Shown here: piece after piece, positions 6,596 through 63,300 of the stretch
Numbering within the stretch: the first letter of the stretch is position 1
Layout of the letters: every line of letters begins with the position of its first letter
NCBI GenBank assembly: GCA_947095585.1
Contig: OX352761.1
Span: forward strand, 135,190,277-135,254,276
Reading direction: 5' to 3'
Length of the DNA: 64,000 nucleotides
Source: Nephrocerus scutellatus
Lineage: Eukaryota; Arthropoda; Insecta; Diptera; Pipunculidae
Program-made: the position numbers and the translations under genes
Notes under the pieces: generated by a model
Database searches by the model: none
Told to the model about the DNA's origin: nothing
Seen by the model: the letters and a program-made list of their open reading frames with translations, nothing else

Positions 6596-9225
6596 TATGT
6601 CGGTAGTGATGTTGCGTTTTAGCTTTTGCCTCAATTCAGCCAATGTTCCAATCCGGAATTTTATTTCATATGGCTTAGAGTGCAGTTACATGGGCGTAAC
6701 ATTCACTATCGCTTTTTTTTATATAGAAGCCCCAAATTAGACAGTGTTTCAGCTCAGAGCGAGTTTGAAACACTGTCTGATTTAATTTTAAGAATTGTCA
6801 CAAAATACGAGTATCATAAAATCGTGAAATCGTTATTGCGGGCGATTTCAATGTACAATATTCTGGGCGGATTCGCCATTCTGGCCAGACAACACCCGAA
6901 GGAAGGTGTGCTGAGATATTCGCTGAGTTTAATCAACATACTCTGCTTGTAAATGAGCCTACAAGAATACCTGACATTGCAAATCATTCCGCAAACACCC
7001 TTGACTTGTTCTTTACCTCTCGTCCTGATAATTACTTCATCAATGTATTATCGTCTCTAGGATCGCCAGACCATTGTGTTGTATCAGCTAGAGTTAGAGA
7101 AAAAACTAAAAAAAAAATATTGCAATACAAGATAGCCAATTGGGATAGCCTTAATAACTTCCTTGGTAGCATTAACTGGTCGCTGTTATTTCGCGACAGG
7201 AACGTGGATGCTGCCCCTGATGCAATTACAAACATCATCCTTATTGGCATGAAAGAATTTATCCCTTCAAGGAATAAGTCTGTCAAACCAAATCGCGATT
7301 GATGGTATGACTCGAGCTGTAAAGAGGCTTCTAGGATTAGAGAGGTATGCTTTCGGTTTTACAAAGCAAACCCTACTGAGAAAAACCGAACAAATTTTAA
7401 ACGAGCCAGAAATGATTGCAATGCCCATCTTCGGCTAGTCAAATTCGCCTACGATCAAAAATTGAGGCAAAAAATACTACAATGTCCCAAAGGTAGTAAA
7501 AATTTTTGGTCATTCGTGAAAAGAATCCAAAATACAGCCTCGTCGTCGATTCCAACGCTCATTTATAGTTACATTCCAGTTGTCAACTCTATGGACAAAC
7601 CAAATCTGTTTCTTGCACATTTTGCAGCTAGCTTCACGCTTCCAGATTGTGCATTGCTGCCGCCTGCACCTCTGAGTATTGAACACTCTATGGGACAGAT
7701 CTTCACTGGTACTCTTGCAGTTGCTAGAGCTTTAAATGATCTCAATACTCACAAATCCACAAATCCGATTGGCCAGATGGTGTTTCCCCATTAGCTCTAA
7801 AGAGGTGTTTTTCCAAGCCGACATTACCATTGCGTAAGCTTTTTCAGCTATCCTATTCTTCTGAACTCTTCCGGAGAAGTTGGAAAACAGCCTTTGTCAG
7901 CCCATACCCTCAAAAATGACGAGCCGTCGTCTCCTTCTTTGTACCGACCCATGGCACTTACATTCATTCTTTCCAAGGTCATGGAAATGCTGATCAATTT
8001 TCAGCTCAATGAAATCCTTAGTGACCGACGGTACGGATTTCGTGGGCAACATTCTACTGGTGATTTGATGGTTTATCTCACCGAACAGTGGAACCGATCT
8101 TTGCATCAATTTGGCGAAAGCAAAATGGTTGCACTCAATATTTCCAAGGCAATTGACAGAGTTTGGCATCAAGCTCTTTTCTTCAAAATGCATGCATATG
8201 GTGTCGATGAAAAACGGCTTCATTGGATTAGGAGCTATCTTTTGGACCGCTCAATTCAAGTTGTTTTTGACGGTTTCAACTCTTAAATACATCGGATAAA
8301 TGCTGGGCCCTGTTTTGTTTCCGACGCTCTTTCTCATTTTGTTAATGATCTCATGTCCATAACTTCTAATCCAATTCACTCTTTCGCTGATGACAGCACT
8401 CTTAGCTTCTCATATAAGTCCACTTCTCTTGCGGAACTCAATCAATTACGTATGTTAAGCACGTAAAATTCTGACATGGACAGCATACTAAAATGGGAAG
8501 AAAACAATCGAGTAGAATTTAACGCTTCCAAAATCCAATGCTGTCTCCTGTCATTTAAGCGAATCTTAAATCCAATGCCATTATCTATGAATGGCACTTG
8601 CATCGAGGAAACTGAAAAACTCGCAATTCTCGGTATGTGCGTTAGCGACAAGCTTCGTTGGAAAAGCTGTTGCGAAATCCTTAGGTTTTCTAGCCCGGTG
8701 CAAGAAATATTTCACTCCTTCTGATCCGGCTACTATCTACAAGGCTCTTAACTTGAGTTTAATTGTAATATCTGATCTGGTGCACCTAAGACCACCTTGC
8801 ATCAGCGAGATAGAATACAAAACCGCGCACTAAAACTTATCAGTGATGAAAACATTGCGAAATCAATAGATTCGCTTGGACGTCGCAGGAACGTTTCCTG
8901 CTTGTCACTGTTTTATCGTTTCTTCCACCAGCGATGCTCAAGAGAATTAGCCATGATATCTACCTCACCCTGAATTCAACCGCAATACTCGTGGCGCTCG
9001 AAATGCTCATCAATTAACCTTGAACCCATCTTCGGACAGGTAAATTCATAGATTGGTTCTTCAGCCGTAAAACAAGTATGTGGAATGCTCTGCCAAGCTG
9101 TGTTTTTCCACATCACTATGATCCACAGGTTCAAAACACAATCTCGTAGACATCTCCTCTTTCTCCTCCTTTTCCTTAACGCCCACGCTGTGCCCCTTTA
9201 AGCGTGAGCGAATTATACAAAAAAA
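6596..9225 (+). mobile_element. LINE family J, longest copy (endonuclease C-term plus reverse transcriptase), broken
   Basis: Non-LTR retrotransposon of about 2.6 kb. Endonuclease remains: FETLSDLILRIVTKYEY, then DIANHSANTLDLFFTSRPD and GSPDHCVVSARV, the C-terminal S-x-DH block of AP-type endonucleases. The linker runs 7006-7794 with FWSFVKRIQNTASS. Reverse transcriptase: SPSLYRPMALTFILSKVMEM, RRYGFRGQHSTGDLM, VALNISKAIDRVWH, then FADDSTLSFSYKS (8376 on) and VEFNASKIQCCLLS. The motif A aspartate is Asn (LNISKAID instead of the usual LDISKAFD), so the enzyme would be dead even without the frameshifts and stops. The 3' end is TTTAAGCGTGAGCGAATTATAC plus an A-run. No RNase H was seen. Confidence 0.85.
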
Positions 9226-28325: not shown

Positions 28326-28397
28326 GGCTCAATGGTCTAGGGGTATGATTCTCGCTTTGGGTGCGAGAGGTCCCGGGTTCAAATCCCGGTTGAGCCC
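28326..28397 (+). tRNA. tRNA-Pro (anticodon TGG)
   Basis: The 72-nt cloverleaf is complete. The acceptor stem GGCTCAA pairs with TTGAGCC. The anticodon stem CTCGC/GCGAG encloses the loop TTTGGGT with anticodon TGG at 34-36 and G37. The T arm CCCGG/CCGGG encloses TTCAAAT, and the discriminator base is C. The A box (TGGTCTAGGGG) and B box (GGTTCAAATCC) of the internal Pol III promoter are intact and there is no intron. A T-run (TATTTTTTT, then a longer one) begins three bases downstream and serves as the Pol III terminator. A short foldback lies 150 bases upstream. Confidence 0.97.
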
Positions 28398-36455: not shown

Positions 36456-37093
36456 AAAAACGTATAAGATATTCTCCATCATCACACGTCCCATAAAAAT
36501 CAACATTAGGCGAGTGATGGAAAATGTCTTGAGGAAAATGTTTTGACTTTCAAAACTAATAGAGCGTTGATTAAAAGAATTGGAATATTATGTTAAATTT
36601 GTTGGCATATTTTGGCCTATATAATAAACCATACATCTAGATACACATACTAAAACATGATTTTGATACAGCGAATGTCATTACTTTATACTATGAAGAC
36701 AAGAAATATAAACGACCATTCAAAAAAGTTTGTCACATTTGGTTAGCTAATAGTCCTGTTAACTATAAAGTAGATACACAATAAATTACACAGTAGTTAT
36801 ATTAACCTTATCAAAAATTACACTTAAAAATTTACTTTAGCGAACTTTTTATAGTATTTTAATTTTTAATTCAGTCAAATATAGCGACATAAATAAATTG
36901 TTTAAAAAATCAATCAGAAAAATTATTTTATTTGCCTTTTTTCCTTGATCAGTCCCGCAAGACCGGAATATTGGAATAATTTAAATTATAATTTTTAAAT
37001 ACACACATTGCTACCTAAAGCCAAAAAAGCCTGCATTTCTCTCCGACTATTTAAATCTAAGAAAATAACCATCCAAGCTGCTGGTCTATTATA
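36456..37093. other. Intergenic, nothing recognised
   Basis: AT-rich DNA left of the palindrome. Confidence 0.55.
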
Positions 37094-37708
37094 AAGGGTG
37101 TTTTTTTGGGAGGTTTGTTTTTCCGATAGATGTCGTTTTATTTTATGACAGTTGTTTTGACAGCTCAAAGTGGCATTTCTACTCAGTATTGTTTGGCAAA
37201 TCATTATGAAAAAAAAAAAAAAAAAAAAAAAAAAAATGACATTTGTGAAAAATAGTCGTGGTAGCCATATGCCAGAAATTGTGTTTAAATGTTAAATGCC
37301 AAAAAATTATCTACCAAATAAAAAAAAATTTTGGTCATTTCATAATTTTATATGTGTTTTATTCAAAAAAAAATCGGCAACGTCTTAAAAAAACACGTTA
37401 TATCTAACGGATGTTTTTTTAAGAGGTTGCCGATTTTTTTTTTGAATAAAACACATATAAAATTATGAAATGACCAAAATTTTTTTTTATTTGGTAGATA
37501 ATTTTTTGGCATTTAACATTTAAACACAATTTCTGGCATATGGCTACCACGACTATTTTTCACAAATGTCATTTTTTTTTTTTTTTTTTTTTTCACAATG
37601 ATTTGCCAAACAATACTGAGTAGAAATGCCACTTTGAGCTGTCAAAACAACTGTCATAAAATAAAACGACATCTATCGGAAAAACAAACCTCCCAAAAAA
37701 ACACCCTA
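37094..37708. mobile_element. 615-bp near-perfect palindromic MITE with TA target duplication
   Basis: The two ~305-bp arms are reverse complements down to a 4-nt centre (TATC, 37401-37404, flanked by CGTTA/TAACG). Ends are AGGGTGTTTTTTTGGGAGG and its complement, flanked by TA at 37092-37093 and 37709-37710 as in Tc1/mariner insertions. Differences are few: an A-run of 28 (37209-37236) versus a T-run of 22 (37572-37593), one A/G change beside it, and a small indel near the centre. The arms therefore encode the same peptide frame (MICQTILSRNATLSCQNNCH) on opposite strands. There is no transposase. Confidence 0.9.
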
Positions 37709-37714
37709 TACAAT

Positions 37715-52037: not shown

Positions 52038-53245
52038 TTAGTGGCGGAGTTTTTTAAATCTGCTGCCGAACATATACGTCGGATGGTTCGTCATTTTTTG
52101 AGCAGAACCCACATTTGTTTCTGAGCCTAGCTTAATTTTGTTAAGGTGATACCGCAAGCCAGAGAGACCTGTGAGAAAACTCACCAGCTTTCTAATGATA
52201 TCATTGTCTAGGTAAAAGATTTCCTTATAGGAGTGCGGCCTATTTAATCGTTTGGATTGTCTCAGCCCTGAGACATTTTTCCAATGGCCCACGGTGAAGT
52301 TTATGCTATCAATTATTACTCAGCGCTATGGCGGAAGCCCAGTTGACACTACAGTGGGGTTCAGGTACTATTAACGCAGATTCTGAGCAAGCCATAGCTA
52401 GTTCATCTGCAGATTCGTTGACTAGGGACCCAACCGAATTTCACTCTGTTTTATCTGGCAAGAGATTTAAGTGCCTCGTAGCAGCTTTTAACTGATAAAA
52501 AATCCTTTAAGTTGGACGACAGTGCTTTAATATTTCTACCTCAAATAACTTGCCGCAACAGTACACCTTGATTATAATGTCGTGGATAGTGCAAAACATG
52601 TTTCTGTCGGGAATTGAGTAAAGTATTTTTAGGTGTTCCTCATGGTCACCTGGTTTCTACCATGCAGCTTAAAAGCGCATGAAGTGGCCATCTTCATAAG
52701 ATTTTTAAGGGTGGAAGCCCAATAACAGCTACTAATGCCCCCGTAGGGCACCCGTGATTTAGACCCCTAGCTCTGCCGTAAAAGCGTCTGCAGGCCCACA
52801 TGTCGCGTTCGATGGCGGACTTGTTGTAAGAATTCCAGCTTAGCCATTTATCAAGGATAACTTCGAGATATTTAATCTCACTGGAATAAACTACAGTGTT
52901 GCCTTTGACAGTGATAGGTCCTAGATTGACCAATCTTATTTTTGTGAAAGGCACTAGAACGGTTTTGCAAGGATAAATGGATAGTCCTTCACTGCTGCAC
53001 CGTTCAAAAACTTGCTCCTTGCATAATGTAATGGTCGTGCTGTGTTTACCACTAACAAGAATCGCTAAATCGTCCGCATAAACAATGGCGATGTACCCAT
53101 ATTCCTGTAGATTGGCTAGAAGGTTGTCGATGACTAGTGACCAAAGAAGGGGGGACAAGACTCCTCCTTGGGTACAACCTTTAACTGCGTTCGCAGACAC
53201 AGACACTCCTTCTTGACTTCTTTCGAGCATGACCTTATCCATTAT
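52038..53245 (-). mobile_element. LINE family L (R1/I/Loa-like), RT palm-thumb, RNase H end and C-terminal region
   Basis: The first open frame (53242-52694, 182 codons) carries MDKVMLERSQEGVSVSANAV, KGCTQGGVLSPLLWSLVIDN (motif B) and IAIVYADDLAILVSGK (catalytic YADD intact), then motif D/E and the thumb (EIKYLEVILDKWLSWNSY). Downstream, frames broken by stops read NSVGSLVNESADELAMACSE, the end of an RNase H domain, followed by a C-terminal 84-codon frame (52292-52038: MGHWKNVSGLRQSKRLNRPH...). The 5' truncation is just before motif B. Confidence 0.85.
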
Positions 53246-53337
53246 TGATCAATTGGATCAACTTATTATCTATCGGTATTCCTCAAAATCATTCATTAAC
53301 TTACGTCAATTTATAATGCGGCTATGTTGTACTTATT

Positions 53338-60383: not shown

Positions 60384-63300
60384 ATGACGTCCATTATTAG
60401 GATAGTTAATGACAAGATAGCTGATCTTTCGAATGGCATTGGTACGTAATATGATTATATATTAGTTTGCATTTAATTTAATTTATTTTGTTTCTCCTCA
60501 CTTTCCCAAAGATCAAACTGTCGATCAGTGGTTTCTTATGAGGTCTCCACTGCCATTGCTTTCCATAGTCGCTGTTTACCTACTATTTGTTTTAAAAATT
60601 GGACCTACGTTGATGGCAAATCGCAAGCCCTTTGATCTTAAGAACATCATGGTCGTTTACAACGCATTCCAGGTGGCTTTCTCAACATGGCTGTGTTATA
60701 CGGTGGGTTTATTTTTTATTTTTGTGATATTTTAGGATGTTGTGACTACGTGGACAGACAAATTGTTTGCCATCTTTTTTTAAATGCACATTTACAAGCT
60801 GCAGTTTCATTGGGAGCAAATTCGCTACATTATTCAAAATCACCAATTTCCTTTGATTTTTGTGAAAAATATTACATCTGTATCTGTATTTAAGCGTATT
60901 CTCCCGAATACAAAAGCGACATAACTTCATAACTTACTCGCGCGAATCGAATAGATTTCTGAACATATACAGAGTTCAGGTGTAGTAGTCACCGGAAATC
61001 TTTAACTAATAGACACGACAATCAACTACATTAAACTACAAAAGCTACTCGTATATAAATAGAAAATAATTTTGCATAAAATAGCTTCAAAAACGGCAAT
61101 CGATGTATGGAACCATAAAGAATAGTGGAATTCTTATTGTTCTAGTAAGCTCATAAGAAGTTACCTCAAACCACAACATCATCATCATATTTGGCTCTAC
61201 AACCAGGGTCCGGTCCTGGCTTCCCGCAAAAAATCTCCACCGGTCCCGATTTTGAGCCGATGTCATCCAGTTTTGCATCTGGGCATCCTGGTCTACGCCA
61301 TCCCTCCAGCGTAGTCTTTGCCGGCCTCGCTGCCGTGTTCAATAAATCCTATCGCAAAGGACTTTCCGAGCACGATCCTCTTCGCTCATGCGAGCTAGGT
61401 GTTCTGTCTACCGAAGCCTACCGAGCTTAATTTTCTTCACGATGTCGACATCGCGTTAACGCTCGTAGATCTCATCATTATAGAGTCTCCAGAATCGTCC
61501 TTCCTCACATACGGGGCCGTAAGACTTTTCTCTCGAACGCGGCTAAGAGGTCAGAATGCTTTTTGCTATACACCCAAGTCTCGGATCCATATGTAAGTAC
61601 TGGTATGACCATTGTCTTATATACCAGCAGCTTGGATGTTATGGTTTCTGGTTTCTGATTCCATGCTGGTATCGGCTGCTACAGTTTATTTAAATTGAGG
61701 GACTAATGTTGGATATTCTACTCGCAGACGTGGCCACCATGTACTTTGCTTTGCTCTCATTTATGTGCAGCCCCAGATTTCGTGCCTTCTGTTCGATCTG
61801 GATGAAAGCTTTCTCTGTACAGCTCTTGGGTTGCTACCAACGATGTTAATATTGTTTGCGTAAGCCAGTATCTGAATGGACTTATAAAGGATTGGTCCTC
61901 TCGCCGTTACGTGAGAGTCTCGGATCAAATTCTCCAAGGCCATGTTGAAGAGCACGCAGGCCAGCCTATCCCCTTGCCGAAGCTCGTTGTAGATGTTGAA
62001 TGGGCTTGATAGTGAACCGGATATTTCTACTCATAGCTTTATAGAGTGCTATAATAGGCGGCTTTGAAGTCTATAAAAGATGGTGTAGTGAGTTTTAAAA
62101 TCCTAGAAAATTTTCCATCACCTGACTATGTGTGTATATCTAATAAACTGTGATATGCCTGGGACGAAGCCACACTGGTACGGACCAATGATGTCTTTAG
62201 CGAATGGAGCTATCCTGTCTTGTATGATAGAGGAGAAATCTTATACGCGGTACTCAACAAAGTTATACCACGATAATTGCTGCATGTTGTGATATCTCCT
62301 TTCCTATGTATCGGGCACAGGATGCCTCTTCGCCAGTCTTCTGGCATCACTTCTTCCTCCCATACTTCCACTATTATTTCATGAATTCCTTGGTGCATCG
62401 CGGGACCTCCTGCTTTAATTAGCTCCGCTGGGATACCAAATGATCCCGGGGTCTTATTATTTTTGAGCCGATTTATCGCTCTGTTAACTTCGTCTATGCT
62501 TGATGGCGGTAGCATAGTGTGGTCATCGGTCATTGGTAGAGCCTACAATTCCTCATTTAGCCGGCCATTAAGCAACTCATGAAAGTGCTCTTCCCGCGGT
62601 GTACATTGCATCATACCGGGGACTTTTTGGTAGAACTTCAGCGCCTGGTGCGGTCCTCGCTATCTGTACTGTTCTAGTTCACGGAAGAAATTCTTCTCCC
62701 AGATTGCTTTCATTCGCCAGTGAACTGTTTTTTCATATTTCCTAAGCTATGAGATTGTTGCATTGCTCGATATGCAACATTCTTATGTTCAGTCGCTAGG
62801 TTACATTCGTCATCGAACCAGTCGTTCCGATTTCTACAACGACTGCCTAAGATGGAGTCCGCAGTACTAATGACAGATTCTTAAGGCGTATCCATTTCTC
62901 TTCTACGTCCGACATCTCAGCCCCAGGACTTACTCTACCTGCATTTAGGGCGAGTCCTATCGCTTGATCAGGTTCGGGTTGTGGCGGCGGTCTATCAACA
63001 CGTGGTCTATCTAGTTGGGAGTGGCTCCATCAGGAGATACCCAGGTTACTTTGTGGATATTTTTACACGCAAACCTTGTACTCGCAACTACAAAATTCAT
63101 TGCCCATTGTCATTAGTGTTCTCGTGTAAGCTGTGGGTGCCAATGTACTGCCTGAACGCTGACTCCCTACCTATTTCGGCATTCATATCCCCCAGTATGA
63201 TTTTTACATTATAGTGAGGGAAGGCATGGAGTTCTCATTCGACTGATTCAAAGAATTCTTCTTTTTCATCATCTGGAGAATCCTCTGTAGGTGCGTGAAC

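Follow-up and report, generated by a model that had tools for sequence, protein, structure and literature searches.

The window, a stretch of 64,000 nucleotides from the genome of Nephrocerus scutellatus, contains a 615-bp palindrome that we interpret as a non-autonomous composite transposon. We propose that two copies of a DD41D element carrying the same deletion were joined tail to tail, leaving two 5'-type outer ends, and that the product was spread in trans by the transposase of its parent. On the comparisons set out below, all of them made at the level of sequence, we put the probability of this reading at about 75%.

Anatomy and copy number of the palindrome

The element spans positions 37094–37708. 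Aligned with its own reverse complement it is 96.1% identical over 622 columns, and TA lies directly beyond both ends (37092–37093 and 37709–37710). A sequence-only reading had described a near-perfect 615-bp palindrome flanked by TA, with arms joined at a 4-nt centre and differing mainly in the length of one run (28 versus 22), and the self-alignment confirmed that description. The main arm blocks comprise 159 nt with 100% and 143 nt with 98% complementarity. What distinguishes the arms is chiefly the A/T run, together with one base adjoining it and a few more at the axis. The predicted fold of the element as single-stranded DNA has an energy of −339.6 kcal/mol, compared with a mean of −65.1 (sd 4.4) for 20 shuffled sequences. 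The sequence-only reading further suggested that such a structure would extrude a cruciform and, when transcribed, could give rise to dsRNA/siRNA. Chance or a simple repeat was rejected because of the complementarity of the arm blocks and because the fold is far outside the range of the 20 shuffles. A phage origin of an arm was rejected as well, since no match was found at E 1e-5.

Read from the left, arm 1 begins with a 2-nt tip, AA (37094–37095, + strand). A 5'-type end and leader follow, matching approximately the first 115 bp of the parent up to its former start codon ATG (37096–37208, +), and a run of 28 A residues (37209–37236, +) then replaces the transposase frame. The rest of the arm matches the last part of the parent, with its last codons and 3' end (37237–37396, +), and is 2 bases short at the axis. 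The axis (37397–37408) consists of a tip GT, TA, the centre TATC (37401–37404), TA and a tip AC. With its neighbors it reads CAC, GT, TA, TATC, TA, AC, GGATG in the window copy, and the position of GGATG is GGGTG in most other copies. Arm complementarity and the self-alignment place arm 2 on the − strand: the parent's last part, inverted, with its 3' end at the axis (37409–37571), a run of 22 that reads T on the + strand (37572–37593), the inverted leader and 5'-type end (37594–37706), and a tip TA (37707–37708). Base 15 of the element, with the tip counted, corresponds to 37108 and 37694. Each outer end can be written as TA, a variable 2-nt tip and GGGTG. The ends had earlier been given as AGGGTGT; the GGGTG core is indeed shared, but a constant AGGGTGT is not, the first 2 nt being the variable tip (AA left, TA right).

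Other features of the window lie apart from the element. An RNA-family search of the window returned only a tRNA, located away from the element, and a tRNA-Pro gene with anticodon TGG occupies 28326–28397. Fragments of non-LTR retrotransposons with endonuclease and reverse transcriptase domains are present at 6820–8286 and 52694–53248, the endonuclease match being just under Pfam's cut-off.

We searched the window's own genome (613 Mb, 9 contigs). The homologue search, limited to the best 40 of 721 candidates, yielded 40 places including the window's own, and 39 were full length. Within that set the full-length homologues, the window itself aside, were 94–99% identical to the window copy. All 40 places were read with 400-bp flanks. 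Genome-wide, the axis junction occurred at 719 places (354 + 365) with up to two mismatches, while a reversed control gave 0. The ATG/A-run junction of the arms had 2,859 exact matches (1432 + 1427), and since an element has at most two arms, there are at least about 1,430 elements. The outer-end pattern had 4,543 matches (2265 + 2278) with up to two mismatches, a count that includes parent ends, which are one base off the pattern. In the first 25.9 Mb of contig C1, 100 listed A-run arms formed 39 inverted pairs and 22 unpaired arms, and scaling up from this stretch we infer approximately 1,700 elements genome-wide. Twenty of the 36 unpaired listed outer ends were fetched: 16 had an inverted second arm, two were half-elements (L062 and L066), and two had no second arm (L063 and L067). 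The two half-elements have unlike flanks and both end at the identical base just beyond the axis, as if copying or cutting halts at the palindrome centre.

By these counts, the window palindrome belongs to a family with well over a thousand near-identical copies and is a non-autonomous member of it. It has the features of a MITE: it is 615 bp long, its transposase frame is replaced by an A-run, and its ends match a co-resident autonomous element. Few variants are common to several palindromes. Palindromes are only modestly commoner than parents, since 61 A-run elements and 47 exact transposase starts were found in the first 25.9 Mb of C1. The element had also been taken for a foldback. It was probably not made at this locus, as the same junction at 719 places points to a tail-to-tail composite that spread as a unit.

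The parent transposon and its insertion sites

Three loci link the palindrome to a coding element. In L063, transposase sequence is found in place of the A-run. L056 is a composite with the same axis, in which one arm carries the A-run and the other is full length with an intact 361-aa frame, and in L119 one arm carries 610 bp of the parent's 5' part. The parent protein has a DUF4817 helix-turn-helix (PF16087, E 6e-16) and matches the catalytic domain of Sleeping Beauty (5cr4, E 1e-9). Alignment with Sleeping Beauty places the catalytic triad at D159, D252 and D294, the last two being separated by 41 residues, i.e., DD41D. On the basis of this triad, the TA, and ends and protein length compared with PMC5490172, the parent can be assigned to the DD41D (rosa/VS) group of Tc1/mariner elements; VS is given as another name of the DD41D rosa group in PMC8472432. 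According to PMC5490172, rosa elements such as aphid Apismar4.1 share with the parent the DD41D triad, a 361-aa transposase, a length of approximately 1.3 kb, the TA duplication and ends starting AAGGGTGT; past those first bases, the aphid end sequence is unlike that of the element here. Aphid rosa also has deletion MITEs, of 349–548 bp and with one arm's worth of each end. Those are described there as internal deletions of one element, whereas ours is a tail-to-tail palindrome.

Exact transposase starts numbered 1,316 genome-wide (649 + 667), and 3' ends without an adjoining axis numbered 1,044 as exact matches. We fetched 40 of those 3' ends, 37 in list order (skipping L063, which was already in hand) and three chosen for odd tips. 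In 34 of them the match covered the 1,300-base reference completely or except for 3 bases; the others comprised three internal deletions, two truncated copies and one A-run monomer (L106). Both ends were readable in 33 parents, among which the 361-aa frame was intact in 22 and broken in 11. The mean pairwise difference among these 33 parents and the full-length arm of L056 was 0.37%, with five variants common to two or three copies and 75 private to one. Judged from its variants, this is the pattern of a star-like burst.

Two other forms of the parent were seen. L076 and L087, in different places, have the same internal deletion (approximately 225–575 of the reference) and represent a second, non-palindromic deletion derivative that spread. 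At C1:46717684–46752110, 11 parent 3'-type ends among the matches listed lie within 35 kb, spaced approximately 2.4–5 kb apart and in two orientations; this is a local array that includes the parent element.

TA was present on both sides in 33 of 33 parents. For the full-length parent L101, a paralogous empty site in L002 has a single TA and no tip bases, which argues that TA is duplicated on insertion and that the tips are part of the element. The window copy has a paralogue of its own flanks at 61576–61649 (− strand), found as a match to the joined flanks and 80% identical. It does not carry the 615 bp, and has GA where an intact TA would be expected. Other paralogues were less clean at the junction (L069, L086, L088, L096 and L108). 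The TA flanks, the paralogue at 61576–61649, the 719 junctions and a co-resident DD41D element able to supply both arms all support the earlier suggestion that the palindrome was mobilized by a Tc1/mariner transposase. P- or Mutator-type foldback elements have a target duplication longer than 2 bp; the duplication here is TA, and we rejected that assignment. Galileo and Tm1, listed as foldbacks of the P superfamily and of Mutator type, respectively (PMC4168063 and PMC3169594), resemble our element in having long inverted arms with little between them but differ from it, with its TA duplication and Tc1/mariner parent.

Abundance and origin of the composite

Each arm joins approximately the first 115 bp of the parent to its last 165 bp through an A-run, 12–39 long in the copies measured. 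At the axis, two 3' ends, each with a tip AC and TA, face one another across 4 bp, which leaves ends of the 5' type on both outer sides. The proposed sequence of events is that two same-deletion copies of the parent were joined tail to tail, 4 bp apart, after which the parent transposase would bind the two outer ends, excise the composite and paste it into TA.

That the palindrome and not the single-arm form is abundant might be explained, with less certainty, if the transposase acts better on two 5'-type ends than on a 5'–3' pair. In vitro, both Mos1 and Mboumar-9 performed best with two copies of the preferred end, exceeding the natural pair 26-fold and 2-fold, respectively (PMC4505599). The Mos1 3T3 and two-IRR constructs likewise have two copies of one end and outjumped the natural pair (PMC3419177 and PMC4505599). 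Those constructs were hand-built, and the end preferred by Mos1 is the 3' (right) one, whereas the form here is natural, 5'–5' and putatively active. By analogy, a natural composite with two 5'-type ends fits the laboratory rule of two preferred ends.

The chief rival on the question of abundance is founder luck, in which the composite became common only through chance early amplification and its two 5'-type ends gave no advantage. We rate this only a little below even odds. It would account for the star-like burst among the parents and the scant shared variants among the palindromes. In addition, the 5' and 3' ends of the parent are identical at all but 2 of their outer 22 positions, and the sequence therefore gives no clear sign of a strong preference for one end. 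What speaks against founder luck is that single-end preference is documented for two mariners (PMC4505599) and that the single-arm form, although shorter still, is so scarce. The sequence-only reading had singled out the numbers of copies with and without a second arm as informative: there were 719 axis junctions, compared with no A-run monomer among the 37 unselected 3' ends, a sample drawn with a pattern that missed ends followed by TAG, as in L067. The monomers known are L067 and L106, the latter chosen for its odd tip.

As for how the founder arose, linked differences between arms suggest, though less certainly, that it joined two different insertions and was not one copy folded back on itself. 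At base 15 the parent has A, whereas most palindrome ends have G; there are 1,400 exact ends with A. In the listed C1 stretch, ends with A at base 15 in palindromic arms had the tip AC in 18 of 19 cases. The other 40 such ends had AA (30), AC (5) or AT (5), 34 of them adjoining an exact transposase start and six not; the enrichment of AC in the palindromic arms is significant (Fisher 9e-10). Given this linkage, the simplest founder combined an AC-and-A arm with an AA-and-G arm and would thus have come from two different insertions. Like tips within one copy were scarce (6 of 32 pairs, P 0.02 under random pairing), which is expected if the founder arms had different tips. Among 20 further composites from the axis listing, AA/AC was the commonest tip pair; AA/TA, TA/TA and one TA/TC occurred as well. 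Inspection by eye of the listed transposase starts revealed no two lying inverted to each other within 3 kb; L056 and L119 have a single transposase-bearing arm.

A single copy could also have produced the second arm by snap-back, with a break just outside the 3' end of a deleted monomer, foldback on GTTA-TATC-TAAC, self-primed copying and later mobilization of the dimer by the parent transposase. The axis does form a 4-bp stem and 4-nt loop, and one copying step would directly give both arms the same A-run deletion. We nevertheless consider this origin unlikely, though plausible. Two separate insertions would leave a tip and TA of its own at each inner end, and this is what is seen: the inner ends are complete with the parent 3' tip and TA, except that the left one of the window copy is 2 bases short inside the tip. 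The linked differences at the tip and base 15 are a further difficulty for snap-back, although they could stem from mutation after it.

Similarity of the arms and variability of the tips

The palindrome had been described as having arms that were either young or homogenized by gene conversion. The data show both, with youth the dominant cause. Across 137 arm-segment pairs, 63 variants were present in one arm only, and six, in four copies, were present in both arms of a copy. The rate of variant sharing per comparison was 0.044 within copies versus 0.0004 between copies, so that some copying from arm to arm does exist. The axis is inverted relative to the best-match orientation in at least three copies (L026, L035 and L036), which could be a product of recombination between arms. 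An old element whose arms are kept identical mainly by gene conversion would explain the six shared variants and the excess of sharing within copies, but it is improbable given the 63 variants restricted to one arm, the A-run lengths of paired arms, which were not significantly correlated (rho 0.27, P 0.10, 37 copies), and the parents, which have no second arm and yet depart from their consensus at only 0.18% per base. We therefore rejected homogenization as the main cause of identity and attribute the likeness of the arms mainly to the youth of the burst, with a contribution from occasional arm-to-arm copying.

An assembly or library fold-back artefact is scarcely credible and, for the family, is ruled out by copy number, with the same junction at 719 places and unlike flanks on the two sides in 39 of 40 copies checked, although L046 sits in an artefact-like perfect inverted duplication of its own flanks. 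For the single window copy, which has unlike flanks and a paralogue without the element, an artefact is very improbable. L046, with L134 and L135 (C4:39526300–39532977; tips AC/AC), is the one copy of the 40 in which the palindrome extends into the flanks. These are inverted copies of each other over 398 of 398 bases and then 2,639 of 2,643, to the limit fetched. Either the assembly folded back or switched haplotypes in error here, or the palindrome lies at the centre of a real inverted duplication.

Unexpectedly, the terminal dinucleotides are far less conserved than the element body. All 100 listed ends of the palindrome type had the tip AA (58), AC (26) or TA (16). In the 33 parents, 5' tips were AA (25), AC (5), AT (2) and TC (1), and 3' tips, by eye among the matches listed, were AC in all but four. 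Per base, 5' tips departed from the commonest in 9 of 66 positions (13.6%), or 6 of 62 (9.7%) without L107 and L108, copies chosen for odd 3' tips. With 77 of 42,756 (0.18%) in the element body, the terminal dinucleotides are roughly 50–75 times more variable. The 5' tip was changed in four of four copies with a changed 3' tip, versus 5 of 30 others (Fisher 0.003), and in L071 the two tips are exactly exchanged. Seven palindromes with one common substitution at the axis (L017, L018, L023, L024, L030, L037 and L045) have six different ordered tip pairs; L023 and L024 have the same flanks.

The tips would correspond to the 2 nt left single-stranded by Tc1-type transposases; ISY100 transposase cuts 2 nt inside the 5' end (PMC2170065), which equals the tip length here. 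Such tips may be lost, recaptured from the old TA, or swapped between ends. Recapture of the old TA would give the tip TA and put A at the reactive 3' end, the best base there for both Mos1 and Mboumar-9 (PMC4505599). An exchange could perhaps occur if an excised element were put back into its donor site in reverse and repair then resolved the mismatched tips in either direction. Loss of tips can only be a rare event, and was rejected as a common step, because only eight tip-less ends of the searched type were found. Five tip-less loci were fetched; four are apparently tip-less at one end with TA beyond the other, and L132 has no readable second end. A circle-junction model in which both tips come from one shared spacer was worked by hand and rejected because it predicts tips that are unseen. 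We offer only tentatively a joint reading, in which a tail-to-tail landing gave a two-5'-end composite better than its parent as a substrate and the tips were not faithfully kept.

The closest counterpart in form is MADE1, the human MITE of Hsmar1, which is likewise a near-perfect Tc1/mariner-derived palindrome of the TA type, high in copy number and capable of forming a hairpin if transcribed (PMC1784062). MADE1 is 80 bp long and consists of two 37-bp terminal repeats plus 6 bp; in the element here, by contrast, an entire deleted element running 5' to 3' over approximately 305 bp makes up each arm, and both outer ends are of one type. In a search of open-access papers, we recognised no description of a palindromic DD41D element whose outer ends are both 5'-type. 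Should those ends be the reason for its success, a rule established with laboratory constructs would here have shaped a genome. The burst is very young, parent and derivative reside together, and two thirds of the parents analysed retain a coding frame, so that the emergence of a MITE can be followed in this fly almost step by step.
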